Assembly: GCF_043290135.1 (NCBI RefSeq) | Contig: NC_134702.1 | Location: forward strand, 197,130,491 to 197,194,490 | DNA: 64,000 nucleotides | Direction of reading: 5' to 3' | DNA from: Rhipicephalus microplus | Lineage: Eukaryota > Arthropoda > Arachnida > Ixodida > Ixodidae | Shown: positions 1,893 through 59,838 of the stretch, piece by piece | Layout of the letters: the number at the start of each line of letters is the position of its first letter | How positions within the stretch are numbered: the first letter of the stretch is position 1 | Position numbers and translations under genes: made by a program | Notes under the pieces: generated by a model | Database searches by the model: none | Seen by the model: only the letters and a program-made list of their open reading frames with translations | What the model was told of the DNA's origin: nothing

Positions 1893-2291
1893 TATAAGAG
1901 GGACAATTAATCAGCTGCCCGCTCATAATAAGTTCACGTGCTACGTGGCGCCAAACATGCGCATAAGAGTGTTTCACACTCGTTGTTTGGCTTATAGATG
2001 GCGCTGACTGTCACTTCTACTTCTAAATTCACAGATAAACCCAAAAAAGTGGATGGAGGGAGGGCCGCTGTGATAGCTCAGTGGTTAGAGCATCGAACGC
2101 GTAATTCGAAGGTCGTAGGTTCGATTCCTGCTCACAGTTGGTAATTTTTTCATCCACTTTTCTTTCTTCCTATTTACATTCCATTGGTTTTAATAACTTC
2201 CCCTGTACATTCCTTGGCATTACTGTCTGTTATATCTCATTAATATTGTGTTAAAAACACGGAAAAACGAGCCCTTAGGTATACACTTCTT
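1893..2291 (+). repeat. tRNA-bearing interspersed repeat, plus-strand unit
   Basis: A repeat unit of about 400 bp containing a tRNA-like segment at 2068-2138. The box A equivalent is TAGCTCAGTGGTTAGAGC and box B is GGTTCGATTCC. The terminal stem GCTGTGA/TCACAGT can pair (one G-T pair), and the anticodon arm TCGAA/TTCGA pairs. Position 33 of the anticodon loop is G rather than T, so a working tRNA is unlikely. The tRNA part sits in the middle of the unit, with about 175 bp of unrelated sequence before it and about 150 bp after. Four further copies lie in opposite orientation at 7557-9345. Confidence 0.8.
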
Positions 2292-3781: not shown

Positions 3782-6700
3782 ACGACGCAGTTCCTGAGGC
3801 AAGAACTGCGCAAGTTTCGATTTGCCCAAGTCCTCATTTGTCACCTACCAATGTTATTGATGTGTTCGTCGAAAATATTCCTACTGTCGCTCTTGTAGAT
3901 ACCGGTGCAGCTGTTTCGGTTATAGATGCTGGATTTTGTCGCTCAATTCGTAAGGTTACGACGCCTTTCTCCGGATTATCGCTTCGCACAGCCAGTGCTC
4001 AACCTGTTCAACCGACCGCAGTATGTACAGCCCGCGTGACAATTCAGGACGTTCTGTATACGATAGAGTTCGTGGTTCTTTCATCATGCTCCCATAATAT
4101 TATTTTGGGATGGGACTTTTTGTCGCGTCATAACGCCGTAATCGACTGTGCTAAGGCTGAGGTCGAATTTTGCTCACTGGATGACCAAGCGTCCGCCGAC
4201 ACCCAGTTTGCCGCTAAACTTGTCGTTAGCGATGACACCTACATCCCTCCATGCTCCTTTGCGTTCGTGCCAGTTTCATGCAGCGCCATATCCAACGGCA
4301 CGGTCTTCTTCACACCATCTCCAATATTCGTCGCCCGAAGAGCCCTCCCCCTGCCTTTTGCTGCTCTCGATCTTGTAGAAGGGTCGACCACAATGCCAAT
4401 TTATAATCATGAGTCGTCGTCTTTATCCCTACTTTGTCACGAGTGCCTTGGCCACGTCGAGACAATCAGTTCTTCCAGAATTATATCCGTCTCCGATGAG
4501 GTGCCTTCTACCTCCGTCTGTGAACTGGCTGTCGTCTCAGCGCCTGACTCAACGTCGGCAAACATATTTCAACCATTCATCGCTGCAGATTTGACATCTT
4601 CGCAGCGTTCACAACTCCTCACCATTCTTGAAAGCTACCGCCACTCTTTCGACGTTGAACAAACATCTCTCGGCCGTGCCTTAGCAGTAGAACACCACAT
4701 CTACACTGGGTCCCACTCACCGTTGCGACAACGACCATATCGCGTGTCCGCTACAGAACGCCGCGTCATTGCTGACCAAGTAGACGACATGCTTCGCAGA
4801 GGCGTCATTCGACCTTCACAGAGCCCATGGGCGTCTCCGGTGGTTCTCGTCAAAAAGAAAGACGGTTCTATTCGTTTCTGTGTCGATTTCCGGCGATTGA
4901 ACAAGATCACGCTGAAGGATGTCTATCCACTACCGCGCATTGACGATGCTTTGGACAGTTTGCAGGGCGCCGAGTTCTTTTCCTCGTTAGACTTGCGGTC
5001 AGGCTACTGGCAGGTGCCTATGGCGGAGGCCGATCGCCCCAAAACCGCTTTTGTCACGCCAGACGGCTTATATGAATTCACCGTCATGCCCTTCGGACTG
5101 TGCAATGCACCTGCAACGTTCGAACGAATGATGGACAACATCCTGCGTGGACTAAAATGGAAGATATGCTTGTGTTACCTCGATGATATCGTGGTCTTCG
5201 CCCCTAACTTTGACACACACTTACGTCGCCTTCAGCACGTCCTTACTTGCTTAACTAACGCCGGTTTGCAATTAAACCTCAAAAAATGTCGATTTGCCAT
5301 GCGTCAACTGAACATTTTGGGCCACGTTGTTTCCAAGGAAGGCATCCTCCCGGATCCCGAGAAATTGCGAGCTGTTACGGCGTTTCCTAAACCTGCCACC
5401 ATCAAAGAACTTCGAAGTTTCATCGGCCTGTGTTCGTATTTCCGGCGATTCGTCCGAAACTTCGCGTCTATTATATCACCTCTCACGCAACTTCTCAGCA
5501 GCTGTAAAGACCTCTTATCGTGGTCCCCTGCCTGCGACGAGGCTTTCACCACCCTGCGACGGCTTCTTACGACGCCACCCATTCTACGCCATTTCGATCC
5601 TGAAGCTCCAACTGAAATCCACACCGACGCCAGTGGTGTAGGCCTGGGCGCTGTGCTCGCACAGCGTAAACCGGAACATGAAGAATACGTCGTGGCATAC
5701 GCTAGTCGCACACTTACCAAGGCTGAGAGCAACTACAGCGTCACAGAAAAGGAGTGCTTGGCCATTGTGTGGGCCCTTGGAAAGTTTCGCCCATATCTAT
5801 ATGGTCGTTCTTTTGACGTCGTGACCGACCACCACGCGCTGTGCTGGCTTTCAACGTTAAAAGACCCATCTGGCCGCCTCGCTCGCTGGGCGTTGAAAAT
5901 TCAAGATTACGACATACGCGTGGTTTATCGGTCAGGACGGAAGCATGCTGACGCCGACGCCCTTTCCCGTTCCCCCCTGTCCCAGAATGCCACAGCTGAC
6001 TCCGCTTGCGATTCCACATTGTCATCGCTTGACTTTGACACCATTGCTAGCGAACAACGCAATGACCCGTGGACTGCGTCTCTCCTCAATCATCTATCCG
6101 ACACTTCTGAACTCCCAAAGACGCGAACGCTTCGGCGCCAAGTTCCACACTTCTCGATACGTGACACGCTTCTCTATCGACGTAACTACGCACCAGAGGG
6201 ACGCAAGTGGCTGCTCGTCGTTCCACGAACCCTGAGGTCGCAGATTTGTTCCTCTTTTCACGCTGACCCACAATGTGGCCACGCAGGAGTCTTCAAGACC
6301 TACGAAAGGCTTAGACATCGCTACTACTGGCGTGGCATGTATACCTTTGTCCGCATCTTCGTCCGCTCTTGTGCCGAATGTCAGCGCCGAAAATCTCCAC
6401 CACACGCCTCCGCCGGTGAACTGCAGCCTTTACCATGCCCTTCCCGACCCTTCGAACGGGTTGGAATAGATATTTATGGGCCACTTCCATTGACTCCGAC
6501 TGGCAACAGGTGGATAATAGTTGCTATCGACCACCTAACGCGCTATGCCGAGACCGCTGCTCTTAAAACGGCTACAGCACAGGAGGTTGCCACTTTCCTA
6601 CTGCGTCATTTTGTGTTGCGTCATGGAGGCCCTCAAGAACTCCTCAGTGACCGCGGCCGCGCCTTCTTGTCCGAGGTCATTGAAAAATTGCTCGCTGAGT

Positions 6701-7323
6701 GTGCTATTGTACATCGCACATGTACCGCTTACCACCCACAAACCAATGGGGCTACCGAGCGCTTTAATCGTACTCTCGGTGACATGCTATCTATGTACGT
6801 GACGCCTGACCACTCTAATTGGGACTTAGTTCTCCCATTCATTACATACGCCTATAATACGGCAACGCAAGCGACAACAGGCTTCTCCCCTTTTTACCTC
6901 CTCTACGGCCGTCACCCCTCCCACACCATTGACACCATTTTGCCCTATCGACCAGACGCGTCCGAGTGCCTACCGATCTTGGACGCCGCCAGACACGCAG
7001 AAGAATGCCGCCAGTTAGCTCGTCGCTTTACCTGCGATGACCAAAACAGGCAAAAAGCAATTCATGATGCCCAGACCTCAACTCCCGTTTTTCTTCCGGG
7101 TTCTCTTGTATGGCTGTCAGTGCCGCATCGCACACCTGGGCTCTCATCCAAACTTCTGCCGAAGTACGATGGGCCATATCGTATTGTCGAACAAACTTCG
7201 CCGGTAAACTACCTCATTGAGCCTCTTACGCCACCATCAGACTTGCGACGTCGCAACCGCGAGGTTGTACACGTCCAGAGGCTCAAGCAGTACCACGGTT
7301 CAACGCCGCCTGCACAGGACTAA
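3772..7323 (+). CDS. Gypsy Pol: protease, reverse transcriptase, RNase H, integrase
   Basis: Uninterrupted Pol frame, in -1 relation to gag. Numbering from codon 3838 as residue 1: the aspartic protease motif DTGA starts at 21. The RT palm runs from [10 protein letters not shown] to the catalytic YLDD at 447-450. The RNase H motif TDASG has its first Asp at 597. The integrase zinc finger HX6HX29CX2C uses H808, H815, C845 and C848. The integrase catalytic triad is D878, D938 and E974, with the canonical 35 residues between the last two. A basic C-terminal domain follows. All catalytic residues are present, so the enzyme set looks functional. There is no in-frame ATG near the protease start; expression is probably as Gag-Pol by frameshift. 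The stop lies 35 bp before the 3' LTR. Confidence 0.95.

Positions 7324-7516: not shown

Positions 7517-7556
<40 letters not shown>
7503..7556. repeat. (TA)n microsatellite, right side of gypsy insertion
   Basis: Slightly interrupted TA tract between the gypsy 3' LTR and the first minus-strand tRNA-bearing unit. Confidence 0.9.
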
Positions 7557-7559
<3 letters not shown>

Positions 7560-8008
7560 GAAAGAAGTGTATACCCAAGGGCTCCTTTTTCCATGTTTTA
7601 ACACAATATTAATCAGATCTAACAGACAGTAGTGCCAAGGAATGTACAGGGGAAGGTATTAGAACCAATGAAGTGTAAATAAGAAGAAAGAAAAGTGGAT
7701 GAAAAAATAACCAGCCGTGAGCAGGAATCGAACCTACGACCTTCGAATAACGCGTTAGATGCTCTAACCACTGAGCTACCACAGCGCCCTACCCTCCATC
7801 CACTTTTTTGGGTTTATATGTGAATTTAGAAGTAGGAGTGACAGTCAGCGCCATCTATAAGCCAAGCGAAGAGTGTGAAAACACTCTTTTATGCGCATGT
7901 TTGGCGTCACGTAGCACGTGAACTTTATTATGAGCGGGCAGCTGATTAATAGTCTCTCGTATACAACCTAAACACACCAAGTCTGCCAGTACGAAACCCT
8001 CGTTCAAT
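7557..8008 (-). repeat. tRNA-bearing repeat unit A
   Basis: First of four head-to-tail minus-strand units. The tRNA-like part is at 7785-7714, with TAGCTCAGTGGTTAGAGC and GGTTCGATTCC promoter boxes and a pairable terminal stem (GCTGTGG/TCACGGC). Before the gypsy insertion this unit and the plus unit at 1893-2291 would have formed an inverted pair around the TA tract. Confidence 0.8.
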
Positions 8009-8448
8009 GAAATAAGGGAAAGAAGTGTATACCCAAAGGCTCATTTTTCCGTGTTTTAACACACTAATAATGAGATCTAACAGACAGTAATGCCAAGTAA
8101 TGTAAGGGGAAGTTATTAGAACCGACGGAATGTAAATAAAAAGAAAAAGAAGGGGATGAATAAATAAACAGCCGTGAGCAGAAATCGAACCTACCACCTT
8201 CGAATAACACGTTCGACGCTCTAACCACTGAGCTACCACTGCAGCCTTCCCTCCACCCACTTTTTTGGGTTTATATGTGAATTTAGAAGTAGGAGTGACA
8301 GTCAGCGCCATCTATAAGCCAAGCGACGAGTGTGAAAACAATCTTTCTTGCGCATGTTTGGTGTCACGTAGCACGTGAACTTTATTATGAGCGGGCCGCT
8401 GAATAATAGTCCCTCATATACAGCCCACTGATAATAAAGTTCACGTGC

Positions 8449-8517: not shown

Positions 8518-8945
8518 AACTGGTGTATACTTAAGGGATTGTTTTGTTATAATATTGAGATCTATCAGACAATAATGCCAAGGAAACTATTAGGGAAGTT
8601 ATTAGGCCAATTCTAATGTAAATGTGAAGAAATAAAAGTGAGTGAAAAGATAACTTGCTGTGGGCAGGATCCAAACCTGCGATCTTCGAATAACGTGTTC
8701 GATGCTCTACCACTGAGCTACCATGGCGGCTATTCTCCAAGCCACTTTATTTGGTTTATATGTGATTTTGAGCGAGGGAGTGTCAGTCAGCGCCATCTGT
8801 AGCCATGGCGGCGAGTGTGGCACACTCTTTATCAGCCTGTACGGCGTGACGTAGCACGCGAACCTATTAAGAACTGGCAGCTGACCAATTTTCCCTCGTA
8901 TACAAGCTAAGGCACGAAGTCTGCCAATACGAGGCCCTCGTTAGT
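8518..8945 (-). repeat. tRNA-bearing repeat unit C
   Basis: Third unit, more diverged from A and B and closest to unit D. The tRNA-like part is at about 8729-8655 and retains TAGCTCAGTGGTAGAGC; box B is degraded (GGTTTGGATCC). Confidence 0.75.
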
Positions 8946-35012: not shown

Positions 35013-35051
<39 letters not shown>

Positions 35052-35053
35052 TT
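35013..35053 (-). repeat. (AATA)n tail of the LINE
   Basis: About ten AATA repeats on the minus strand, directly after GGGTACC. Simple-repeat tails instead of poly(A) are usual for CR1/L2-type elements. Confidence 0.9.
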
Positions 35054-35540
35054 GGTACCCTCAGGGCTTACAAGAAGCATTGTAGAGGGGAGGGGCTGAA
35101 GTAAATGAAAACACTATAAGGAATACACAGAAAAAGAAACTTAGTCAAAAAATTGTAACATCGAAGGGGAAAAAAAAAAAATAAAAAATAAAAGTGGCAC
35201 TAAGAGATAGAGCACAAAAGGAAACAAACTAGATAAGTTTATACATGAACTAACAAAAGAAAATAGGACGAAAAAATACACTTTGACGTCGCAATCACAG
35301 TGAATGTCAGTGCATGCTGCACAAAAAATAATCGACTGATGCCTTTTCAATACACATGTTCAAAAAAAAAAATGATACATGAAAAAACAAATTTATCGAG
35401 TTACACACACAAAAAGAAAACATCAGTGCAAGGAAAAAAAAAAAAAAAAGTTGAGATAAAGACCTGTACAGAGATAGGTGGTAAAGAAATAAATTGCAGT
35501 TTCAGTGTGTTGTAAATGCATTTGTGAGCGTGATGCAGCT

Positions 35541-38354
35541 TTATAGCGTGTTCGTTAATGCTTTCCGGAAACGGTCAGGGTCTCTGATTGCGACTAGTGA
35601 CGCAGGCAAGAGATTCCATTCATAAGATGTTTTTGGCAAGAATGAATATGAGTAGGTGACTGTGCGCTGTGATGGTACGTGAACTTTGAAAGGGTGGTCG
35701 ACACGTGGGGAGATATAGGATGCGGATGTGATGTATCGGGACTTCAACTCATTGTTATGATAATATATTTTATGAAAAAGGCAAAGACGGGATAACCTCC
35801 TACGAGAAGAAAGAAGGGGAATGCCAAGTGTTCGTTTCATGTCAGTGACACTGGCAGTTCGATGGTAGTTGTGAAGGATGAAACGGGCCGCTCGATTTTG
35901 CACATTTTCAATTATGTTTGTCAGACTAGCATGACCAGGATCCCATATGGAGCATGCGTATTCAAGGTTAGACCTAACATAAGTAATGTACAGCTGTTGC
36001 TTTAACTTCGGGGGAGCTAAGGAAAAATTACGTTTTAAATAACCAAGCATGCGGTTAGCTTTCGATGTAATGTATTCTATGTGTCTTTTCCATGAGAGAT
36101 TGTTAGTAATATGCACACCAAGATATTTATAGGATATTACTTGATCAAGTGAAGTATTATTCAGTAAATAAGTAGGGCATGCTGAAATACTACGGGAAAT
36201 TCTCATTGTTTTGCATTTAGACGTGTTAAGGTCCATAACCCAGAGCTTACACCATGTTGAAATGTTATTAAGATCATTCTGCAGTGTTAGGGTATCATTA
36301 GGGCCTTCAATCTTGCGATATAAAACACAATCATCGGCAAATAAACAGATGGAACTTGTGATTTGGTTAGGAAGATCATTGATGTATATTAAAAAAAGTA
36401 ATGGTGCTAAAACAGAGCCCTGAGGTACGCCTGAGTCAACCGGTACTTCAGGAGAGTTTTTATCATTAATGCTGACATATTGCGTTCGGTTGGATAGAAA
36501 CTCTCGAATCCAATTGAAAACCAGGGGATCAATGTTTAACTGGCTGAGTTTAAATAAGAGTAAGCGGTGACTGACGCGGTCAAAAGCCTTGGCGAAATCT
36601 AAAAATATGCAGTCTACTGTAAATCCATTGTCTAGAAATGCGTGAAGATCATTGCAAAATGTTGCTAGCTGTGTTTCGCATGAGAATGACTTACGAAACC
36701 CATGCTGACTACTATGAAAGAACTTATTCGATTCTAAAAAATTGACCAGATGGGAGAAAATGACGTGTTCGAATATCTTACAAGGAATTGAAGTCAAGGA
36801 AATAGGTCTATAGTTTTGAGGGTTGTGTGTGTCACCGGATTTATGAAGTGGTATCACCTTGCCTGTTTTCCAGTCTTTAGGTAAGGAACTACTGTTCAGT
36901 GATTTCGTGAAAATAAGGTTTAGTAGGATGGAACTATATTCGGCGGTAGCCTGCAAAAATTTCGACGTGATGCCATCAATACCGCACGAGGACGATCTCT
37001 TTAAATTGTTAATGATGGAGCGGATACCAGACGAGTCAAGTAAAATGGGTTCCATGGGAACGTAGCTAGGCGCAGTGAAACGCGGACAGATGTCAGGGTG
37101 AGTAGCACAAAATGAACGGGCAAAAACAGTGTTAAGTGTGGAAGCGCACTGGCTGCTTGGGATTGACTCGCCAGATTTATCAGTAAGAGCTATAGTTAGA
37201 TTATCCCGGTTTCTCACGACGTTCCAAAAGCGTTTTGGGTTGCTTTGGAGCAATGACGGAAGTGTATTATTATAAAATTTAAACTTAGTTTCTTTTAAAG
37301 CACTGGAGTATGCTTTTGCCGCGGTTGTATAAGTGGACCACTTATCAGCAGATGACGATTTCTTGGCGGCACGAAAGAGCCTTTTTTTTTTGTTAGACAG
37401 CCGGTTAAGGTACCTTGTATACCATGGCGCGTTGGATGAATGATAAACCTTCCTTACAGGGATATGCTTTTTTATTAGATGCAGTGCTTTGTCTTTGAAA
37501 CACGTCCATATTTTCTCGACCGTAGCATCATTGTGAGAAAGACAAAAGCTGTCGAGAAATGAGGAAAGCTCGGTGTTGATAGCCTCAAAGTTGGTCTTAT
37601 TGTAATCCTTTATAAGTTTAAAGCGATTGCTCCTTCTATTCCTCGGTACAGAAATGGAAAAATGTAGCACGTCATGGTCACTCAACCCTGGCAAGTGAGT
37701 TATTTCAGATGCAATATCTGGTGATGAGGTGAGTATCAAATCTAGTAGGTGTGATGTGCTAGGAGTAACACGGGTGGGAATACGCACTAATTGTGATAGA
37801 TTGTAATCCAAACAAGTGGTTAGGAAATAACTCGTTTCAGCTGAAGCAGGCTCTGCAAACGGGCATGGATGAGACCATTGGATTGATGGAAAATTAAAAT
37901 CTCCTAGAAGAAAAACTGGAATACCGGGAGTTAATGCCGAAATATGACTTAGGCAATCATGTAATTCTTCGCAGAAAGAGCCGTTGGAATTAGGCGGGCG
38001 ATAGCAAATGCCAAAAACAATTTTTTGAAAACAAATCGTCACGTAGCACCAGACAATTTCTAATCTACAAGGGATTTTCAGAAGTGTACATTGAAAACAC
38101 TCATTCACAGCAATGAGGACCCCACCACCCCTTCTTTCGGAGCGATCACATCGATGTACAGTGAAAGTTTTGTGGCACTGAAAAAGCTCACTTGTTGCAA
38201 TTTGATCGGAAAGCCAGGTTTCAGACAAAAGGATTATGTCAGCATCCGTGTCATTAATTAAAGCACTTAGGCGGTCTCTTTTCGGAATAAGGCTGCGAAT
38301 ATTAGCATACAGGATTGAAAGCTCCGATGGTGAAGATGAGCCACCACCCCTCAC
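35541..38354 (-). CDS. LINE ORF2: endonuclease and reverse transcriptase
   Basis: A 937-codon open frame counted from GTG 38354. The N-terminal exonuclease-endonuclease-phosphatase type endonuclease shows YANIRSL, LSETWL, LGDFNFPSIQW and SDHDVLHF. The RT shows the NYRPISLTS, HGFRKSFSCETQL, DFAKAFDRVSH and PQGSVLAPLLFLIYINDL blocks and catalytic FADD at residues 672-675. The C-terminal region follows (ENVQNRAARFIL, SYEWNLLP). No RNase H domain. It nicks target DNA and copies the element RNA. There is no Met codon before or within the endonuclease; the first is at about residue 430. The frame is the same as ORF1, with only UAG-GAC-AGU between, so expression by stop readthrough from ORF1 is likely. 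Confidence 0.95.
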   Translation of the reverse strand: MRGGGSSSPSELSILYANIRSLIPKRDRLSALINDTDADIILLSETWLSDQIATSELFQCHKTFTVHRCDRSERRGGGVLIAVNECFQCTLLKIPCRLEIVWCYVTICFQKIVFGICYRPPNSNGSFCEELHDCLSHISALTPGIPVFLLGDFNFPSIQWSHPCPFAEPASAETSYFLTTCLDYNLSQLVRIPTRVTPSTSHLLDLILTSSPDIASEITHLPGLSDHDVLHFSISVPRNRRSNRFKLIKDYNKTNFEAINTELSSFLDSFCLSHNDATVEKIWTCFKDKALHLIKKHIPVRKVYHSSNAPWYTRYLNRLSNKKKRLFRAAKKSSSADKWSTYTTAAKAYSSALKETKFKFYNNTLPSLLQSNPKRFWNVVRNRDNLTIALTDKSGESIPSSQCASTLNTVFARSFCATHPDICPRFTAPSYVPMEPILLDSSGIRSIINNLKRSSSCGIDGITSKFLQATAEYSSILLNLIFTKSLNSSSLPKDWKTGKVIPLHKSGDTHNPQNYRPISLTSIPCKIFEHVIFSHLVNFLESNKFFHSSQHGFRKSFSCETQLATFCNDLHAFLDNGFTVDCIFLDFAKAFDRVSHRLLLFKLSQLNIDPLVFNWIREFLSNRTQYVSINDKNSPEVPVDSGVPQGSVLAPLLFLIYINDLPNQITSSICLFADDCVLYRKIEGPNDTLTLQNDLNNISTWCKLWVMDLNTSKCKTMRISRSISACPTYLLNNTSLDQVISYKYLGVHITNNLSWKRHIEYITSKANRMLGYLKRNFSLAPPKLKQQLYITYVRSNLEYACSIWDPGHASLTNIIENVQNRAARFILHNYHRTASVTDMKRTLGIPLLSSRRRLSRLCLFHKIYYHNNELKSRYITSASYISPRVDHPFKVHVPSQRTVTYSYSFLPKTSYEWNLLPASLVAIRDPDRFRKALTNTL

Positions 38355-38360
38355 ACTGTC

Positions 38361-39326
38361 CTAGCTAGTGTTAGAATAAGGACGACCTGATCTGGTCGCC
38401 CTAGGGCTAGAGGAAACGGCAACTTGTGGGGAAGGTGCCTCGCAGACGACGTTGGTGCGAGCATCATACACATAGCATTTATTTTGTGCATATAATTTTT
38501 TGTACCGCAACTTAAACGGTTTTTTTAAAGCAATGCCAAACTCTGTCAGCTTTTTACGAGCTTCACGAGTTGATACAGAGAAGTCTTCAGAAAGGCCAAT
38601 GCCACTACCTCGTAAAATAGATTTCTTAGACAGTAGTAGCATTTTTGACTTGGAATTTGAAAATTTAGCAATGAGGGGTCTATTTTTACCTGCCAAGTAT
38701 CTGCCTATTCGGTGTGCTCGTGCTATGTCATCGGGTGATAAGCGAACATTCAACCTGTCACGAGCCATCGCGATAATTTTTTCTTCTGACTGGTGCGCTT
38801 TCTCGTCTGGCACGTCAGGTAAGCCATAAAATAGCACATTATCACGTCGAGACCGATCTTCAGCCTCATCAAGCCGGGCTTGTAGATCAATTGTCTCTTG
38901 TTCCACGCGAATTAGTGATTGGCGCGTGATAGATAGTTCTTGCTGTACATTTGGAAGATCGCTAATCCGTTTTTCTACCGTTTGTAGCCGTACGGTAATG
39001 TCAGCCACTGCAGTTGCAACCGTCTCATGGGAAACCTTAAGATCAGACAATGCCTGTGACATGCTCGATTGGTTAGTCTCGATTCTAATACAACGCTCAT
39101 TTGTCTCTTTAACCAACTGAATTAGTTCCGTTAGGGTCTTGTCAGGCCCAGGGTTTTCCTCAATGTCCCCACAAAGCATAAGCAGCAAAGAAGAAAAAGG
39201 TTCAAGCAATGCTTCTGGGCACGGAAGCACAATCGCAAATCGGTCACTAGTCTTGTAACATTTGCAAGGCAAGAGAAAGGAATCACCAACCTGCACAACA
39301 AGAAAGATGTGCCGTAAGTTCTTCAT
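38361..39326 (-). CDS. LINE ORF1 with N-terminal 2A-like peptide
   Basis: Counted from the Met at 39326 closest to the body (321 codons). Residues 1-52 include two hydrophobic stretches (HIFLVVQ and FSSLLLML). Residues 53-61 are GDIEENPGP, an exact match to the DxExNPGP 2A consensus; ribosomes would be expected to skip the Gly60-Pro61 bond and release the leader. A coiled coil with regular hydrophobic spacing follows (about 62-165), then an L1-ORF1-type RNA-binding region (RRDNVLFYGLPD, ARAHRIGR, RPLIAKF) and a basic tail. The frame also stays open upstream through the monomers, because 321 bp is 107 codons, so each monomer supplies another in-frame MKNLRHIF start. The stop is TAG at 38363-38361. 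ORF1p is an RNA-binding chaperone in related LINEs. Confidence 0.9.
   Translation of the reverse strand: MKNLRHIFLVVQVGDSFLLPCKCYKTSDRFAIVLPCPEALLEPFSSLLLMLCGDIEENPGPDKTLTELIQLVKETNERCIRIETNQSSMSQALSDLKVSHETVATAVADITVRLQTVEKRISDLPNVQQELSITRQSLIRVEQETIDLQARLDEAEDRSRRDNVLFYGLPDVPDEKAHQSEEKIIAMARDRLNVRLSPDDIARAHRIGRYLAGKNRPLIAKFSNSKSKMLLLSKKSILRGSGIGLSEDFSVSTREARKKLTEFGIALKKPFKLRYKKLYAQNKCYVYDARTNVVCEAPSPQVAVSSSPRATRSGRPYSNTS
39144..39170 (-). promoter_or_regulatory. 2A ribosome-skipping motif in LINE ORF1
   Basis: Encodes GDIEENPGP, preceded by a hydrophobic SSLLLMLC. 2A motifs at ORF1 N-termini are known from some APE-type LINEs (trypanosome L1Tc and CR1-like elements of sea urchin and other invertebrates). 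Here the match is complete at all defining residues. Confidence 0.88.
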
Positions 39327-39611
39327 TCTGTCTGTGCATCCGTGCCCACTGGCGGGGTGGCAAGTGGCGTGTGCTTTTAAACCATCCACTATCAGTCGTG
39401 ACGATGTCACTGACGTTGTACTGCGTGGCTCATGGATAGGGCAAGCCGTGGCGCTGTTGAGAAGACTGGGCGCGGCGCTTTCAAACACGCATGAAGAATC
39501 GGTGGCTGCGCAGATGACATCCACGTACGCCGAAGTCGAGCCGCAAAACGGAATTTCGACCGCGGGAAGCGATCGATGATCCAAGGGATGGCTTGCAAGA
39601 ACGCCCACAAT
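39291..39611 (-). repeat. LINE 5' monomer 1 (321 bp, proximal)
   Basis: The unit nearest ORF1. It is identical to 39612-39932 as far as I can compare. It contains the MKNLRHIF start in the ORF1 frame. Tandem 5' monomers act as promoters in other LINEs such as mouse L1, so a promoter role is inferred. Confidence 0.93.
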
Positions 39612-39932
39612 CTGCACAACAAGAAAGATGTGCCGTAAGTTCTTCATTCTGTCTGTGCATCCGTGCCCACTGGCGGGGTGGCAAGTGGCGTGTGCTTTTA
39701 AACCATCCACTATCAGTCGTGACGATGTCACTGACGTTGTACTGCGTGGCTCATGGATAGGGCAAGCCGTGGCGCTGTTGAGAAGACTGGGCGCGGCGCT
39801 TTCAAACACGCATGAAGAATCGGTGGCTGCGCAGATGACATCCACGTACGCCGAAGTCGAGCCGCAAAACGGAATTTCGACCGCGGGAAGCGATCGATGA
39901 TCCAAGGGATGGCTTGCAAGAACGCCCACAAT
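39612..39932 (-). repeat. LINE 5' monomer 2 (321 bp)
   Basis: Second complete unit, identical to monomer 1. A palindromic GATCGATC lies in both units within GAAGCGATCGATGATCC. Confidence 0.93.
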
Positions 39933-39992
39933 CTGCACAACAAGAAAGATGTGCCGTAAGTTCTTCATTCTGTCTGTGCATCCGTGCCCACT
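39933..39992 (-). repeat. LINE 5' monomer 3, truncated
   Basis: The first 60 bases of the unit (as read on the plus strand), ending at GTGCCCACT where the complete units continue GGCGGGG. This truncation is the 5' end of the inserted element. Confidence 0.9.
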
Positions 39993-42615: not shown

Positions 42616-43041
42616 TGGATTCTCGCAGTAGTTCCACCCGTTCACATGTCAACCAGGAGCGTCTCTATTCCCATACACAAGTATTTTGTAGATTTACAAG
42701 AGTTCAAATCGAATTGATTTAGCTTCAAGACTTCCTTCGCGTAATATTAGGTCGTGTTGCTAACACTTTCTCACTGCTTCGCCATACCAGTCAAACAGAT
42801 TTATTTTCAAAACCAATTGAACAGCTTTTCCCCACCAATCTTAAAGGCTACCCTCCCCTCTTCTTTTCCCGCTCCACGCCACCGCTGATCCAATAAATCA
42901 TGGTGGTGGATACCGCACCCAAGCGCACCACCACAGGTAATATTGGGACCACTGCATAGGTGTTCTATGTGCATGTACAAACATATGGTTTAAACAATGT
43001 AGCTGCAAATACAACACTGCTAATACATGAAGATCTCTTAC

Positions 43042-43830
43042 CTATTAAATATGGCTTCACAAATGAGAACATCCCGGCTGACGCCACGACGATGCCGAAA
43101 GACACTGACATCTTCTCATGCCCGAAGTAGCTTGCCAGTGTCATTGAGAAAATGACCATTCCCGTGCCGATGGTGAATGCAATGACAAAGGCTACCGTAA
43201 AGATAAGTTCGTGGCTATTTACAAAAGGCAGGATAAGAAAAGTTACCGCTTCCAACACCAGAGTGAGCAATACGGCTGTCTTGATCTGCAGCAGACCACG
43301 GTCGATGACGGCTGGTAATGTGAGCCGTCCAAGCACTTCAAATACCGCTCCAGCGGCCATCACAGTGACTGCCGTCGACACCATTACTCCCTTATCACAG
43401 GCGAAGTCCACGAACAGCGACACGTAACATTCGTAACCAAGGCAGTAGGTGTTGAAGCTGTACATTATTAGGTAGAACACCGGTTCTTTAAACACTGTCA
43501 TTGCGTGGTGCAGCATGGGGCTCCGTAGCTGATCGTCACTTTGCGCACGAATCTCGGGGTCAAGCTTGTTGTTGCTCGGAGAAATGTCCCTCCAAGAAGG
43601 AGTGCGTAGAAAGAGGCTAAATGCGAGCCCGTTCAAGCAAACCGCACCGAAGATAAGAAGTGCGCCATGAAGGCCATAGCTGGTGTTGAGAAACTCCAGC
43701 AGTTTGGGAAACACAAACAGGCCTAAGGTCACACCGGTGAAGTTAAGGCCCATTGCAAGGCCTTTGTTCTTGATGAAGTGTTCGCTAATAATAGTAGGAG
43801 CTATGATGAACACCATGCCTGCTCCTACGG
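43042..43830 (-). CDS. Monocarboxylate-transporter-like protein, large internal exon
   Basis: Main exon of an SLC16 (MFS) transporter, a plasma-membrane carrier. The acceptor is TTTTTTTCAATATGCAG before 43830 and the donor is ATAG|GTAAGAG at 43042/43041. It starts with two bases completing a codon from exon 53045-52902 (GTA ATA CAC G + CC, giving GVIHAVGAGMVF). It encodes the end of TM4, then the family segment EHFIKNKGLAMGLNFTGVTLG leading into TM5, and TM6. A short central loop of about 40 residues follows, then TM7 (YLIMYSFNTYCLGYECYV), TM8, TM9, TM10 and TM11 (FGIVVASAGMFSFVKPYLI). The short central loop is at the low end for SLC16. Substrate cannot be told from sequence. Confidence 0.93.
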
Positions 43831-46807: not shown

Positions 46808-49800
46808 TTAAAGCGAAGATGAACGCCGTATGAAAGGCTTCATGTGGGATACGTGGACTATTTCTGCTGCCCTGTAGCGGCGGTCCGTCGGAAGAAGAAC
46901 TGGTGCCACGCGATAATTCACAGGAGACGTTTGCTCCAAGACAGTGTAGGGGCCAATAAAACGTAATTGAAACTTCTCGCACAGTCCGGGAGTGCGAATG
47001 GGTGTAAGAAGGAGGACTTCGTCGCCAGGGCTGAAAGACACGGCACGATGAGAGGCATCATATTCAAGCTTGCGATCCTGTTGCTTGGCTTCAGTGTTGA
47101 CGCGAGCCAGCTGGCGGCAATGAAGTAGACGAGACACGTATTCTTCACTTGAAGATGAACATGGTTTGACAGGTGCAGAGAAGAACGAAACATCGAGGAA
47201 AGAAGAGGGGAAGCGACCGTGGACGAGGTAGAAGGGCGAGTAACCGGTTGTGCGCTGTACAGAGGTATTATAGGCAAAAGTGACAAATGGCAAAATGGTG
47301 TCCCAGTTTCTGTGGTCGGGTTCGATATACATCGCAATCATATCTGACAGTGTACGATGGAAGTGCTCAGTCAGGCCGTTTGTCTGAGGATGGTAACTGG
47401 AGCTTGTTTTGTGTGTGTGCCGGCTGCCTTGAGCACTTCTTCGACGAGTGCTGAAAGAAATACTCTTTCGCGGTCGCTCAGGAATACACGAGGAGCTCCG
47501 TGTCGAAGGATTATTGCTCGAAGGATGAAGTCGGCCACTTCCGAAGCTGACGCAGAAGGCACGGGAGCTGTTTCGGCGTTGCGGGTCAGGTGGTCGATAG
47601 CTGTAACTATCCAACGATTGCCCGTGACAGTCATAGGAAGCGGACCATACAGGTCAATGCCAACTACCTCGAATGGTTGCAGGGGACACGGGAGCGGTTG
47701 TAATTGTCCATTTCGAGTTGATGTAGGTAGCTTGCGACGCTGACAAAGGGCGCATGAGGCAACGTACTTCGCGACACAGGTGGACAAGCCCGGCCAGTAG
47801 TAGTGACATCTTATGCGGTCATACGTTTTCTGGAAACCCATGTGTCCAGCAGACATGTCGTCTTGATATGTCTTGAGGACTTGAGCCCGAAGAGAGCGAG
47901 GTAGAACGGGCACCCAGCGTTGACCATCAGGGTGGTAGATATGACGGGACAGGACGTGGTTGTTGAGCTTGAATTGCGTGAGCTGTCGGCGAAGACGGGC
48001 GTTAGGGGGCCGGCAAGTCCCGTAGAGACGGTCCATGATGCGGCGACAGTAAGGATCAGCACGTTGGTGAGATAAGAACAAACCACACTCGCTTGGAGAA
48101 GTTGGGTTCATAGTAGTTAATGACGAAACATGTAGGGAAGAGACGGCCGAAAGCTTCTCGTGTGCGGCAGTGGCGGGTTTGTTAAGCGGGTCCGAAGAAA
48201 GCGGGCAACGCGAAAGGGCGTCGGCGTCTTGATGCTTGTTTCCCGACTTGTATGTGATAGTGAAGTCGTATTCTTTTAAGCGAAGAATCCAGCGACCAAG
48301 GCGGCCGGACAAGTTCTTGATTGTTGAGAGCCAGCACAAGGCGTGATGGTCCGTAACCACAGTAAAGTGGCGGCCGTGGAGATAAGGTCTAAACTTTTGT
48401 ATCGACCATACGACCGCTAGGCACTCTTGTTCGGTGATGGTATAATTCTTTTCAGCAGGGCTGAGTGCACGGCTCGCGTATGCGACAACTTTCTCACGTG
48501 AATATTTGTCTCGCTGTAGGAGAATTCCACCAATGCCTCGACCACTAGCGTCTGTATGCAGGAGCGTAGGCGCGGTTTCGTCGAAATGGCAGAGGACTGG
48601 TTCGGATGTGAGTGCACACTTCAGTTGGGCAAACGCCGCTTCACATTCAGGAGACCACACAAAGGTGACGCCTGATCCGAGCAACTTGTGCAATGGTGAA
48701 GCTATTGAGGCGAAGTCTCGAATGAATCGGCGAAAATAAGAAGCGAGGCCGAGGAAACTGCGCAAATCTTTGGCCTTTTCAGGACGCGGGAAGTGTTGGA
48801 CAGCGGGAATCTTGTCAGGATCGGGACGAATACCATCCTTGCTTGCGATGTGGCCTAACACTTTAATCGTCTTGCTCGCAAAACGGCACTTCTTGGTGTT
48901 CAGCTGAAGGCCTGCGTTTGCAAGGCACGTAAGAACTTCGTCCAGTCGTTGCAAGTGCTGAGGGAAGGTTGACGAGAAAATAACGATATCGTCTAAATAT
49001 CACAAGCAAGTCTTCCACTTCAAGCCTCGTAAAACTGTGTCGATCATCCGCTCGAATGTTGCTGGAGCATTGCAAAGGCCGAATGGCATGACGTTGAATT
49101 CATACAGCCTGTCTGGTGTTGAAAACGCTGTCTTTTCTTTGTCATCCTCGTGCATGGGTATTTGCCAGTAACCTGAATGCAGGTCTAGGCTTGAAAAGTA
49201 CTCCGCACCTTGCAGTGAATCCAAAGCATCGTCTATGCGCGGCATGGGGTAAACATCCTTGTGGGTAATCTTATTAGGTGCTCTGTAGTCAACGCAAAAC
49301 CGCACGGAGCCATCTTTTTTCCTTACTAAAACAACAGGGGATGACCAAGGACTCGCGGAGGGACGTACAATGTTCCGTTGCAGCATATCGGCTACATTTT
49401 GTTCAATGATTTCACGCTCGGATGAAGAGACGCGATATGGTCGACGGCGTACGATAGAAGTGCCATCGGTCTGGATACGATGCCTAATAATGGACGTCTG
49501 TCCCAGAGATGAGGAATGGGCATCAAACAATCTCCTATGCTTTTGTAGCAAGGCAAGCAACTCATCTGTCTGTGAAGAGGTCAGTTCTGGACTAATAGTC
49601 GCAGCAAGAACAGAAACGCTTGATGAACGTCCAATAGAAGGAAGGTTAGAACACGCTGGCATAAGAGAGACAACAGAGACAGGTTGAGATTCAGAAACGC
49701 AAGCCATTGTGGTGCCTTTAGGAATGAGAATTTTCTCAGAAGTCTGGTTCGTAGCGTAGAGAAGTCCGGAGCCATTGTGGAATCGCGCTAGACCTGAAGC

Positions 49801-50376
49801 AAAGGCTACACCTCTTGCGAGACAGCGTGCAGATGGTTGGACAAACACGTCACCAGAGTGGATCACATTAGAAGTGATGGCAACTATCCGCTGATGACCA
49901 GGTGGTAGTTCGGTCTCTTCAGCAGCGAGCAAGCGAACGGGTTTGTCATCCGCATACAGGGCATAGTCAGTTTCCATCATATGAACAACATTTTCTTTAC
50001 AGCAGATGGAAGCGTTCGCCGTAGACAGAAAATCCCAGCCTAATATAATCTGGTGGGCACACGAATTCAGCACAGCAAATTGTACAAAATGAAGAATACC
50101 AGCTATGAAAACACGAGCGGTGCACATACCGGCAGGTCTAATGGCGTCCCCTTGAGCAGCGTGCAGTGTAGGTCCATTATAAGGGGTGGTGACTTTCCGT
50201 AGACGTGAGCACAAAGAACAATCAATCACAGACAAAGAGGCACCAGTGTCTATTAAAGCATCCACGTACACACCTTCTATTAAAACAGCTATCGTATTAT
50301 ATGGACGCACTGGGGGAATTTCTGTCTTTTCGTTCGATGCAGCTTTTCCTCCAAAAGCTGCAGAGGTTAGTTTTCC
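46808..50376 (-). pseudogene. Gypsy Pol, broken by one nonsense codon and one frameshift
   Basis: The Pol frame (-1 to gag) runs from the gag-end heptamer through the protease (IDTGASLSVI) and the first half of RT to a TGA at 49002-49000, which falls directly before the catalytic YLDD. The frame then continues unchanged through YLDDIVIF, RNase H (HTDASGRGIG) and the integrase zinc finger and first two catalytic Asp to 47371. A frameshift near 47408-47416, inside a CACACACA run, moves the integrase end (YHPQTNGLTEH onward) to another frame, which continues to 46808. The first break would stop translation before the RT active site, so this copy makes no working Pol. The remaining catalytic residues look conserved, so the decay is recent. 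Confidence 0.92.
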
Positions 50377-51590
50377 GGGCGTTGGTTGCTGAATTGCGAG
50401 ACAGGTCGCAATGGAGACGTGGAACGGCGGAGGGGTGAGGGTGAGCGGCGTCTAGTAGAGCGGTAGGAACTGGTTGGCTCAGATGTCGAAGTTGGAGACG
50501 GTGAGCGGCGTAGCGGCGGATCATAAGGACGACGTTGGAAAGCGTACCAGCTTGTCCCATCATCCCGTCCGTAGGTGTCGAGTCCACGACGCTCGTCCTG
50601 CTGACGCTTCCGACAGACGCATGCAATGTGGCCCCGATAGCCGCAGTAATAACAGATCGGACGATGCGGCCGACACGGTGGGTGAAAGGGCTGGCTAGTC
50701 ACACTCGGAGTTAACGAAGCCAGCGGGACAGGCGTCGAGTGTGCGGGCATCGGTTGTACCACGAGTGATGAGCCAGCGAGGACTTGTGCGTACGTCGGCT
50801 GGAGTCGAGGTACTGGAGAATCTAAAAACGCTGGCCTGGTCATGGACGCCAACTCCTCTTTGATAACATCCCGCAAAACATTGTTGGAGGGGGGAGGTGG
50901 ACTCGGTGTCATTGAGAGGCCGAAAGATTGCAGCTCTTCCCGTGTAAGCGCCCGGATCATGGCACGCAATGAGGCATCAGTCGTGGTAGTGTTTTCAGAG
51001 CTGTCCGGCGGTAACCGTTGGGATTCAAGTTCCTCCAGGCGTTGGCACGTGGCAACAACGTCAGCGACCGTAGTCGGGTTTTGAATGACCAAGGCATTGA
51101 ACGCGACCGTGCCTATCCCTTTCAGAAGATGACGAACTCTCTCTGATTCAGACATGGACGTGCTGAAACGGTGACAGAGAGCAAGCACATCCTCTATGTA
51201 CGATGTGTAGGACTCACCGCACTGTTGCTTGCGAGGATCCAGTGTCTTCTTCGCGAGAGCTGAACGAACCGCCGGGGTCCCGAAAATTTGGCGAAGCTGT
51301 TGCTTGAAACGTGTCCAGTCCGTAATGTCCGTTTCATGATTGAAAAACCATGTTTTCGCTACGCCCGTGAGGTAGAAAGAAACACGGCGAAGCTTGGTAG
51401 GATCGTCCCATTTGTTAGTGGAACTCGCTCGATTGAACTGGTCCAACCAATCTTCCACATCTTCACCTCGAAGTCCGGCGAACGTGGGCGGCTCACGCTG
51501 GTGCACGGTGATAATCCATGATGGATAGGCCGTGGTAGCCGGGGCCGTGGAGGTAGACGCAGAAGCGCCGGTTGGTTCGTCCTGAGGCAT
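50367..51590 (-). CDS. Gypsy Gag, intact frame
   Basis: Capsid/nucleocapsid protein, 407 residues from ATG 51590. The frame is open further upstream into the LTR, but this Met aligns with the Gag start of the plus-strand element, both shortly before an EPP-F-G segment. The core has DVEDWLDQFNRAS and RRVSFYLTGVAKTWFFNH, shared with the other Gag. The zinc knuckle CX2CX4HX4C is at C313, C316, H321 and C326. An Arg/Ser/Pro-rich tail follows. Stop TAA at 50369-50367 directly follows GGAAAAC. Unlike the plus-strand Gag it has no internal stop. Confidence 0.92.
   Translation of the reverse strand: MPQDEPTGASASTSTAPATTAYPSWIITVHQREPPTFAGLRGEDVEDWLDQFNRASSTNKWDDPTKLRRVSFYLTGVAKTWFFNHETDITDWTRFKQQLRQIFGTPAVRSALAKKTLDPRKQQCGESYTSYIEDVLALCHRFSTSMSESERVRHLLKGIGTVAFNALVIQNPTTVADVVATCQRLEELESQRLPPDSSENTTTTDASLRAMIRALTREELQSFGLSMTPSPPPPSNNVLRDVIKEELASMTRPAFLDSPVPRLQPTYAQVLAGSSLVVQPMPAHSTPVPLASLTPSVTSQPFHPPCRPHRPICYYCGYRGHIACVCRKRQQDERRGLDTYGRDDGTSWYAFQRRPYDPPLRRSPSPTSTSEPTSSYRSTRRRSPSPLRRSTSPLRPVSQFSNQRPEN
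50370..50376 (-). promoter_or_regulatory. Candidate -1 frameshift heptamer at gag end
   Basis: GGAAAAC, read GAA-AAC before the gag TAA. The position matches the plus-strand gypsy element exactly, and the -1 frame reads Gly-Lys-Leu and onward into the protease in both elements. Confidence 0.5.
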
Positions 51591-51688
51591 GTTACCGGAC
51601 ACCTGGTACAAACGACGACCTGAGCGCAGCTCCAGGAGGCAGATCGAGCTGGGAGAGGACAGAAGATCGTAGAGCACACTCCACCACT

Positions 51689-51862
51689 TGTGATGTAACG
51701 GTGAAGGCAACCTTTATTAGGCCCACAAGACACGATGAAGCGACCACGCCCAAGGCACAGAACTCAGACAAGCCAAGTCCCCACAGCAGAAGAAGATGAC
51801 GACCACTCATGATGATGAATATGTGTAAAGATAGATGATGTGCCTAATGAATGCCTACACTA
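51689..51862 (-). repeat. 5' LTR of defective gypsy element
   Basis: 174 bp, paired with 46578-46751. The outer edge borders the right copy of the 158-bp direct repeat. Confidence 0.92.
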
Positions 51863-56233: not shown

Positions 56234-59200
56234 ATGTTCATCGCGCTCCAAACGGCTATGAGTACTTCCCAACAAGCGCTCGACACCATCCAGCACGCCC
56301 TCACGGGCATTGTTCAACCAGTGAAGAACTTGAAAAATTATATTCTTAAGCCTCCTTCTAGCCAAGCTGCGCCCGTCTGTGAGCCTTCTGGGATGCCAAT
56401 GGCGACATCTCCCGTTTCCTACCATGGTCTCACTAACGAAGGCACCCTCGTTTGGCAGTGGACCTTCCAAGGATTTCACCAGAAATTATTGGTCCTTGAT
56501 CAATACCTACGTCAACATACCTGCCACCCTGAGGATATTATACTCCAAGGAACGAACAATGCCCTACCACACTCCGCGCTTATCAAACAATCCACACAGC
56601 TCACCGACATCGCCGGGTTTGCACCCCAGGATGGCGTCACATTCCCGTTATTGAACAGGATCTCCGTAGCCCTCACATTGAACACCTGTTCCTCGAAATA
56701 TTTCCTAACCACGAATGGAACTCAATAAAGCGCTTGTGTTGTCTCTTCTGAGTGATAGTTGCTGCGTTTCCTACCAAGTAGTAAACGAGAAGAATGCATC
56801 TTTCTTTTAAACGTTTACAATAGTCCTAACAGCAAAGCAAAGTGTCGATTTCTCACTCTTTTTAAGAGGCCCTACATATTGCTGGAACGCACCTTCTTCT
56901 TATTGGCGGCGACTTTAACCTTGCCTATACTGCTTGGCGCTATGTACGCACGGAAGCAGCATCTCGCAACCTCTGGCAATATTACCATCACTTAGGCCTC
57001 ATGCTTATAACAGATTAATTTTTTCCCACACGCCTGGTGCCTCCACTATCCGGGACTTTACTCCAGACCTCACATTTACTTACCATATCTACAATGCACA
57101 CTGGAGTAACACCCAACAGGACCTAGGAAGTAACCACTACCTCATCACTATCTCTTTACCTCATCTCGTTGCTACCTGTGCCCCCTCCAAAAAGTTCACT
57201 TTGACCGACTGGGATTCATTTCTCAAGATGCGCATCAGCGCCGCCTCAGCGAAGCGCGTCACCCACATTGACACCTGGACGCAAACGCTATGCATTGACA
57301 TCCAGATGGCCACCCGGGTGATAACCACAGATGCCCCGGTTGAACGCATAGATAGCCACCTAGCCCACCTTTTGGAGGCTAAGGGCTGTATCGTAGCTTG
57401 GTGGGAGGGGCAGTGCCTTAACCATCACCTCAGATGCAAGATCTCTAAACTCAACACAATAATAGAAAAGCGCTGTCAAATGCTCAGCCGGCAACAATTG
57501 ACTGAGCTGTTTAACACGATTGACGGGCCCAACTCACCGCTCTTGAACATCAAAACTCTTGAAACACCTACTCGACACTACCAACACCAGCATTTCGGAA
57601 CCGGATCGGCTGCAGAAACTTCTTTATACGGAGACCCTTAAGCAAGGCCAGCAAAACGTGCTTGACTATCTCTGTACCAAGTATATCTCAAGGGAACAAG
57701 TCAGTACACACAGCAATTATGTCAGTAACCGCAACCCCACACTAGATGCAGCATTTTTATAATCCGAAATACATGCTGCCGTCTGTAAGCTAAACGGTCA
57801 CTCTGCTCCAGGCCCGGATGAGGTCACGAACAAAACCCTTCACAGTTCAGATGACGAATCAATGTCTCATCTGACTGATTACATCAACGATTGCTGATGC
57901 AATGGATCCCTTCCTCCTATCTGGAAAACAGCGAAAGTCACCCTAATTCCAAAGTCCTGCAAACCATCTAGTCTCAACAACGTAAAACTCATTTCCCTCA
58001 CTTCATGTGTGGGTAAGGTTATAGAATTTGCCGTTGGGTCACGTGTAAAGATTTACCTCGAAGACAACTCTATCTATCATCACACCATCATTGGATTTCT
58101 TCCTCACCTGTCAACACAACACGCTGTGCTGCAACTTAAGCACCAAGTTCTGAATGACTGTTTCCGTAACACCAAAGCTATTTTCGGAATCGACCTCCTT
58201 AGTCAAGCTTTTGACAACATTTCTCATTCTGCTATTCTTGAACAACATTTTCTCCCCCACATGGAAGAGGGAGCCTACAATTACATTCGTGATTTTCTGT
58301 CCAACTGCACGGCCACACTTTCGATCGGAGATTTGCGATCAACCCAGATTCCTCTTGTCAGCATAGGCACCCAGCAATCATCTCGCCAATGCTCTTTAAA
58401 TTAGTCATCTTCGGCCTTGCACAGCAGTTACAACAGGTCGACAACCATACTAACTACGCTGACGACATCATCATCTGGGCGTGCCAAGGTAGTGATGGTC
58501 AAGTGGAGACAGCCCTGCAGACAGCGATTGAGACGGTTAAGGCCTATCTGCAATCAACTGAACTGCACTGTTCACCGGCTAAATCGGAGCTTCTTTTATG
58601 CGAGCCCATTCAGCGGGGACGCCTCCCCCCCCCCAAACACCTACACGAGCAACGACCCTGTGACGCCATCACCCTTAACGTTCAAGATGGCAGCCACATC
58701 CCGCACGTCCCTTGTATCTGGGTCCTCGGTCTCACAATATCAGCCGATGGCTCTAACAGCTTGGCTCTCAGCGAGACCTCAGCTCAATCTCACAATACCT
58801 TACGTCTCCTCAAAGATATATGCAACCGAAGAAGTGGTCTCAAAGAAGAGAGCCTTTTCCCCCTCGATACCCTTACACGAGGGGTCTACAAACAAGCACT
58901 TGGGCTCCCGCACTACACCAGCACCAAACTTTTCAATCAACTGGGAGTTCACAACACTCTTGCCGAACTCATCGAAACCCAGCAACGCAGTCAGCTTGAA
59001 CAGCTCACGCTAACTGAAACGGGACGTTTTATTCTCTCCATGCTTGACTTCATGTCTCATCAGCAACAGGGCCCCAAACAATCCATTCCACATAACATCC
59101 GCAGCTCGATCCACGCGGATCTCATCCCTAAAATTATTCATCCTGAGTACAATAGAGCCCGGCGCCAAGCTCACGCTGGAGACAACACAGAAGTTTTTGT

Positions 59201-59838
59201 CCACGTACCTGGCGCCACATTTGTTGATGCAGCTCAGTATCCTTAAAGCACACGTTTTGTAGCTGTCACCACACGCCATGGAGTACTGCACCATGCAACC
59301 AGCATCACTATTCCCTCTTTAGACGGTTGAAGAGGTGGTCGTCGCCCTGGCCATTCTATATCCTGCCTGTGACACCATCGCATGCGACTCTCGCTCAGCC
59401 GTCACTAGCTACAGTGAAGAGCGCATTTACCCTCAAGCTCTTCGCATCCTCTGCCAGGCACCGCACTCCAAAAACAACATAATCAATCCGACATGGATCC
59501 CCACCCAAGCGGGCCCAGTCCACCCACGCCTCCCCAACCTCAATGCGGTCACCAACTCCCTTGCGTGAGGCTTTGTCGACCATGCTGGAGGTACTGGAGA
59601 CAAGATGGACACCAGGGACAACCTGACTACCTACAACTATCTCGTTCAGACATTTTACCTCAGACGCCGAGCCTTCGCCCCACTTCACCCCAAGCTTAAC
59701 CGGGCACAGCCCACTACTTTGCGTCAACTTCAAACACGTATCCCTCGCCTGCCCACCTACACCTCATATTCCCGGACCTGTGCACAACCTTCCACTACCA
59801 ATGCTGTGGCACTCACCCGGCCACGTTTCCGCATATAA
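56234..59838 (+). pseudogene. LINE ORF2 (endonuclease, RT, RNase H), broken
   Basis: Pieces in changing frames. The endonuclease starts near VWQWTFQGFHQK (about 56452) and has GGDFNLAYTAWRY at about 56905. RT is at 57770-58560 with SAPGPDEVTNKTL, FGIDLLSQAFDNISHSAIL and YADDIIIWACQGSDG (about 58455). The connection domain follows to 59246. RNase H includes CDSRSAV and WIPTQAGPVHP (about 59380-59520), with further Cys/His residues at about 59770-59840. At least five frame breaks and several stops are present, so no activity is expected. Confidence 0.8.

Follow-up and report, generated by a model that had tools for sequence, protein, structure and literature searches.

The ORF1 of a LINE in the tick Rhipicephalus microplus contains a canonical 2A (StopGo) ribosome-skipping motif near its N-terminus, which raises the question of what such a motif would release and why it is kept there. 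The window analyzed here is a 64,000-nt stretch of contig NC_134702.1. The whole element spans about 35013-39992 on its minus strand, the strand to which all coordinates of the element refer, and its 3' end is an (AATA)n tail (35013..35053). By six-frame reading, the motif GDIEENPGP was confirmed at 39144..39170, where it forms residues 53-61 of a 321-aa ORF1 counted from the Met at 39324-39326; the predicted 2A break falls between Gly (39147-39149) and Pro (39144-39146). The plus strand across 39144-39170 reads RPRVFLNVP. The hydrophobic segment that the first-pass annotation placed ahead of the motif is indeed there, as SSLLLMLC directly N-terminal of it. The six-frame scan found D[VI]ExNPGP at this single site of the window, compared with 6.7e-5 sites expected from base composition; the chance expectation on the same basis for the whole 3.26-Gb genome is about 3.4. 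A second NPGP in the window, at 55869 (+), was dismissed as a 2A motif because a stop codon immediately precedes it.

ORF1 has at least 125 matches in its own genome (3.26 Gb, 1202 contigs), and at least 21 of these cover all of ORF1 with 99-100% identity, which agrees with the earlier description of the LINE as young. Its description as a tick element is supported as well: in a comparison by eye, a copy of another family from the same genome (L052) was identical to the Rhipicephalus microplus record P0006 along the stretch examined. Among ORF1 relatives sought in viral contigs, eight stretches matched a pattern and none was confirmed.

We scanned 45 distinct copies for the motif, namely the window and loci L009-L052, which were retrieved with an ORF1 query and therefore form a non-random sample. 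Loci L001-L008, which duplicate the window and other loci, were left out of this count, and the short pieces L053 and L054, which lie elsewhere in elements, were not counted as copies. Absence of the motif from all other copies, named in the first-pass annotation as evidence against it, was not observed: the 2A core is kept in 42 of the 45 copies, all from the same genome, and recurs in several tick genera. Forty copies carry D[VI]ExNPGP and two (L044 and L045) carry DIEQNPGM. In L031 and L049 a Lys replaces the Glu of the motif, so that two of the 44 motif-bearing copies are degenerate, while the match of L032, which is without the motif, begins only at residue 61. Family 4 (L044, L045 and L049) has NPGM instead of NPGP, and its Met could double as a start codon. 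In the available part of PMC12846837, M at position p19 is described as rare yet active (92.3%).

Two protein searches (50 listed in one, the best 120 of 203 listed in the other) gave 158 relatives. The pattern (D/G/C/N)(V/I)ExNPG(P/M/W) is carried by 129 of the 158 relatives listed. By eye, the remaining 29 comprise about 20 without the N-terminal region, seven with a deviating sequence (P0004, P0079, P0102, P0104, P0113, P0128 and P0134) and two with an unrelated N-terminus (P0050 and P0051). Named relatives are all ticks, of the genera Rhipicephalus, Dermacentor, Haemaphysalis, Amblyomma, Ixodes and Ornithodoros, although many entries are nameless. The residues ahead of the core are also well conserved. 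Position p11 is Gly in all 123 relatives that have six or more residues ahead of the core, and at least two hydrophobic residues occupy p6-p9, a Leu-rich stretch, in 122 of these 123; the window itself has LLMLCG. In the part of PMC12846837 available to us, the upstream motifs 2 and 6 are L-rich and finish with (A/S/C)G ahead of p12 = D; motif 6 was assayed and found active in reticulocyte lysate. The upstream context of the window and its relatives falls in this motif 2/6 class, as the available text of PMC12846837 defines it. The available main text of PMC12846837 contains no occurrence of 'tick', 'ixod' or 'arachnid'. Judged by these residues, the upstream context of the tick 2A is that of active StopGo sites, and the 2A of the window LINE is very likely functional.

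The 2A core forms the C-terminal end of a conserved 49-codon module (39144..39290). The distance from the CAG that precedes the module to the end of the core equals 49 codons in all seven sequences compared. Against two older relatives, the dN/dS of the module is 0.17 and 0.21, and that of ORF1 after the 2A is 0.28 and 0.29; in 20 further pairs the module has pN of 0.18-0.33 and pS of 0.54-0.95. The 2A residues are invariant while their codons vary, and the first Pro of the core is encoded by four codons in six families. On these substitution patterns, the module is selected at the peptide level and not at the nucleotide level. Within its VLPC stretch, the codons GTG, CTT and TGC are invariant across the six families, whereas other synonymous sites vary. 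Selection for a splice site at the boundary between the module and the upstream sequence was considered but not claimed: CAG (6/6) and AGT (5/5) are invariant there, but GTG, CTT and TGC are equally so.

What lies upstream of the module is not a leader of fixed size. The open frame of ORF1 is not confined to 321 codons but belongs to a 557-codon frame that extends upstream to 40034, and within it the sequence is a tandem array in the order E-P-E-P-E-module, where E measures 60 nt, P 261 nt and the period 321 nt. The first E copy (39933..39992) begins AGTGGGCA and encodes SGHGCTDRMKNLRHIFLVVQ; its outer end at 39992 is the 5' end of the insertion and the putative transcription start, and it contains the first in-frame AUG (39966..39968, with A at -3), the putative translation start. 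It is followed by the first P (39672..39932), a candidate promoter part that is open in the ORF1 frame and contains a TATA-like TTAAAA (39696..39701) 30 nt ahead of the AGTGGGCA of the second E (39612..39671). The second P (39351..39611) likewise has TTAAAA (39375..39380) 30 nt ahead of the AGTGGGCA of the last E (39291..39350), which contains the Met at 39324-39326. Counted from the first AUG, the released leader would therefore have 60 + 107n residues, where n is the number of upstream 107-codon units (0-3), and 274 in the window copy. The first-pass annotation had given the leader 52-60 residues; a 60-residue peptide stands for n = 0, but the size is otherwise variable.

The array was compared among copies. 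In 35 copies from three families we counted 61 complete P-E units, at zero to three per copy, all in frame and with no stop codon. For instance, in family 1 one copy has no complete unit, four have one, twelve have two and four have three; the copies with zero complete units are L028 and L048. Unit lengths in five families equal 321, 321, 318, 315 and 339 nt, every one divisible by three, and the units of these five families contain no stops in the ORF1 frame and one to five in each other forward frame. The probability of a stop-free shuffled unit is 0.014-0.032. Exceptions were noted in L050 of family 5, with a unit of 337 nt, and in the old copy L031, which has a stop in one unit. Units within a copy differ at fewer sites than units of different copies in family 1 (0.12 vs 0.47) and family 2 (0.12 vs 1.44), and family 3 shows the opposite, with its single within-copy pair at 1.00 compared with 0.50 between copies.

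The predicted proteins repeat this arrangement. At least 110 residues precede the core in 58 of the 129 core-bearing proteins, and in-frame repeats occur in this upstream part in 41 of the 58 but in none of the 58 downstream, which served as the control. In 35 of these 41 gene models the repeat ends within two residues of the Q/V boundary; the other six are P0011, with one mismatch before this boundary, P0022, P0052, P0067, P0097 and P0107. Since gene models are biased to open frames, the DNA copies are the stronger evidence for in-frame units. The peptide sequence of the units is less well conserved than their layout. The dN/dS of P in the ORF1 frame equals 0.66, 0.49, 0.74, 0.58 and 0.71 in five pairs, compared with 0.58-1.18 in the two other frames, and in two of the five pairs a lower value was found in another frame. 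For E, dN/dS ranges from 0.62 to 1.13 where defined, and clear protein-level constraint is absent. By these measures P is weakly constrained, and its length and openness are kept more than its sequence.

The 5' ends of the copies point to where transcription may begin. Homology between copies stops at AGTGGGCA, beside differing flanks, exactly in 19 of 35 copies, within 2 nt in 28 and within 7 nt in 33; the outliers are L014, which ends 42 nt inside, and L028, which extends 28 nt beyond AGTGGGCA. TTAAAA occupies position -30 in families 1, 2 and 3 as well as in the old relative L031, and is missing there from families 4-6. Judging from the 5' ends, P is probably a promoter. At the 5' junctions of L015, L017, L022 and L027 parts of E are repeated, a pattern suggestive of template jumping where the RNA reaches its 5' end. 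Counted from the same start, an in-frame AUG lies at +25, +25, +28, +28, +28 and +19 in families 1-6, respectively, with A at -3 in five of the six families and G in family 6. In families 1-5 an out-of-frame AUG at +8 or +12 lies upstream of it and may be skipped, being near the cap. The E plus P start is hydrophobic in all six families, with an 11-residue Kyte-Doolittle window maximum of 1.9-2.9.

Downstream of the skip site, ORF1p (38364..39146) has a predicted coiled coil, RRM and C-terminal domain. An AlphaFold model based on 44 sequences has a mean pLDDT of 83.2 with low confidence across most of residues 1-61, followed by a long helix from residue 64 to 159, the RRM and the C-terminal domain. 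The coiled coil that had been expected after the motif is thus predicted, and in fold the model most closely resembles the human LINE-1 ORF1p trimer (2yko, E 1.2e-8). In this model the folded ORF1p would begin right behind the skip site. Against Pfam, most matches of 21 ORF1 relatives were weak ones to coiled coils, and one of the 21 matched the L1 RBD family.

A single UAG (38361..38363) separates ORF1 from ORF2, which continues in the same frame for 939 codons plus a stop (35541..38360), encodes an endonuclease and a reverse transcriptase, and has no AUG before the endonuclease. The domains matched are PF14529, PF03372 and PF00078, and human L1 ORF2p is matched from residue 3 or 10 onward when the ORF is numbered from its GTG. 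One UAG followed by a same-frame ORF2 was observed in 22 of 22 copies of family 1, 9 of 11 of family 2, 3 of 3 of family 3 and 2 of 2 of family 4; with the sole copies of families 5 and 6, the layout occurs in all six families. The family 2 exceptions, L038 and L041, have the frame broken before the UAG. The base after the UAG is G in six of six families and is followed by (A/G)GGGG. ORF2 is open through its 939 codons in 14 of 21 family-1 copies. The first in-frame Met after the UAG is residue 436 in family 1 and residue 32 in family 3, where it lies past the endonuclease motif at residue 21, and no in-frame Met was found within the 160, 195, 22 and 71 codons read in families 2, 4, 5 and 6, respectively. 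No stable RNA structure 3' of the UAG was detected in comparison with shuffled sequences (z 0.03-1.44, pseudoknots excluded). From the layout, ORF2p is likely made by readthrough of the UAG, and its translation may also begin at a non-AUG start.

The frame, the absence of stops, the variation of the array, the conservation of the 2A module and the UAG layout are all seen directly in the copies, and we suggest a mechanism that would join them. Translation would begin at the first AUG of the array and pass through zero to three in-frame promoter-like units and the 49-residue module. StopGo between the last Gly and Pro of GDIEENPGP would free the variable leader, and the L1-like ORF1p would start at the same proline every time. 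Some ribosomes would then read through the in-frame UAG and extend ORF1p into ORF2, giving a fusion that carries the endonuclease and the reverse transcriptase. In the window, one frame of 1476 codons, which runs from the first AUG to where ORF2 ends and has one UAG inside, could yield three products with the help of two recoding events. As each unit places an AUG of its own ahead of ORF1, the units would be obliged to remain in frame and free of stops. Because copies without a complete unit exist (L028 and L048), ORF1 would be readable from an inner start too. We regard this combination of a start in the array, removal of the leader by StopGo and UAG readthrough as probable; promoter activity, initiation at the first AUG, skipping and readthrough are its inferred parts. 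More broadly and more tentatively, it is quite possible that a large lineage of tick LINEs codes through its promoter. Its units would be translated, a leader (or a spliced host exon) would be cut off by StopGo, the UAG would be read through, and the arrays would change in exact codon units by choice of the start unit and by template switching via E.

Several of these features would also be expected of an ordinary promoter array. Transcripts would start from the innermost E and ORF1 from the last AUG, the 60-residue leader would be a signal or targeting peptide upon failed skipping, as in sea urchins, and the upstream open frame would be a by-product of ancestry. Every unit indeed has its own apparent start, unit-less copies exist, the leader is hydrophobic, and N-terminal 2A signal sequences are described for sea urchin NLR proteins in the available part of PMC4981915. 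In-frame, stop-free units that differ in length and sequence between families are left unexplained, however, and E is without clear protein-level constraint. We consider this reading unlikely.

Given the hydrophobic start of E plus P in all six families, another reading takes the array for a polyprotein in which each unit supplies a secreted or membrane peptide of some use, and the hydrophobic E-P junction would act as its signal sequence. P does show a mild synonymous excess in three of five pairs, but its constraint is weak and none is clear for E, and the pyrimidine-rich stretch before CAG yields hydrophobic codons regardless. A peptide function of this kind appears improbable.

The same pyrimidine-rich run, which reaches up to CAG in each family, would fit a third reading, in which the CAG at the end of E serves as a 3' splice acceptor for upstream host exons, and the 2A is present mainly so that StopGo can strip from ORF1p whatever peptide these exons add. 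In P0022, P0061 and P0067 a different upstream exon is joined exactly at the boundary (39291-39293 or the homologous position); P0022 and P0061 (R. microplus) share the body of P0017, and P0067 (D. variabilis) shares that of P0062. These three are predicted gene models, however, and the invariance of CAG/AGT at the boundary is matched by other codons of the module, which makes splicing a very slim prospect. Finally, that the 2A is dead in ticks and the leader stays on ORF1p is scarcely credible: two of the 44 motif-bearing copies are degenerate (L031 and L049) and seven relatives are off-pattern by eye, but the core residues are kept despite codon variation and the L-rich context is present in 122 of 123 relatives.

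Other features were noted in the window. LTR-retrotransposon-like frames at 2585-7323 (+) consist of a gag (PF03732) and a 1161-codon frame with protease, reverse transcriptase, RNase H and integrase domains and a SH3_Tf2-1 match, and a second set of gag, protease, reverse transcriptase, RNase H and integrase lies in pieces over four frames at 46808-51710 (-). Four tRNA-Thr predictions, at 2067-2139 (+) and at 7713-7785, 8170-8242 and 8656-8727 (-), flank the first LTR-type element on both sides, two of them inside a 457-bp tandem repeat (7554-8422). A 283-codon frame of the major facilitator superfamily (PF07690) at 42965-43816 (-) is perhaps part of a tick transporter gene, and a 285-codon frame at 58389-59246 (+) contains a weak reverse transcriptase fragment (PF00078, under the curated cut-off).

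StopGo/2A sequences reportedly occur in APE-type non-LTR retrotransposons, including L1Tc and elements of sea urchins and other invertebrates. Like these elements, the window LINE has the canonical core in an N-terminal position. A search with P0045 gave 110 new proteins, mostly nameless and some from ticks, with the core in 51 and the upstream repeat in none of the 51; non-tick relatives found in this search also place the 2A after about 50 residues. Unlike the known 2A LINEs, the window element has an upstream frame that is a variable tandem array, apparently promoter-bearing. With human LINE-1 it shares the ORF1p fold, as predicted here, and an ORF2p whose endonuclease and reverse transcriptase are alike by sequence, but in the tick element ORF2 lacks a start AUG ahead of the endonuclease and lies in frame with ORF1 behind the UAG. 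Murine leukaemia virus makes gag-pol by UAG readthrough; there the structural and the enzyme part are separated by one UAG in frame, and the next base is G. One in-frame UAG with a following G is shared by the tick element, which is without stable downstream RNA structure and in which readthrough is suggested by the sequence layout.

The sea urchin NLR proteins have N-terminal 2A signal sequences, and 2A is also present in non-LTR elements, according to the available part of PMC4981915. The NLR proteins share with the tick ORF1 an N-terminal hydrophobic leader that ends in 2A; however, there the 2A sits in host genes, with no repeated units described in that part of PMC4981915, and here it belongs to a LINE ORF1. 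In mouse L1, the monomers are part of the 5'UTR, have promoter function and are separated from ORF1 by a tether, as described in the available part of PMC9022269. The mouse arrays likewise consist of tandem 5' units in variable number, but in that description the monomers lie in the 5'UTR, whereas the tick units share an uninterrupted frame with ORF1, and a 2A comes after them. Other recoding modes of LINEs include the reinitiation of SART1 and the frameshifting of HeT-A (available parts of PMC5972666 and PMC5009743).

A literature search found no 2A in a tick LINE, within the bounds of its wording and of the papers covered and with the possibility that 2A surveys list tick proteins, and, within the same reach, no translated promoter array with a 2A. 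If the proposed mechanism holds, the need to free ORF1p from a translated 5' array whose length varies would explain why a LINE ORF1 should carry a 2A so near its start, and a promoter array bound to a reading frame would be an unusual constraint. Should the UAG be read through, two recoding events would take place on one mRNA. Natural StopGo sequences would moreover be available from tick genomes, including the NPGM form in a mobile element. Taken together with the systems above, an N-terminal 2A in a LINE ORF1 is of a known kind, and its coupling to a translated promoter array looks new.
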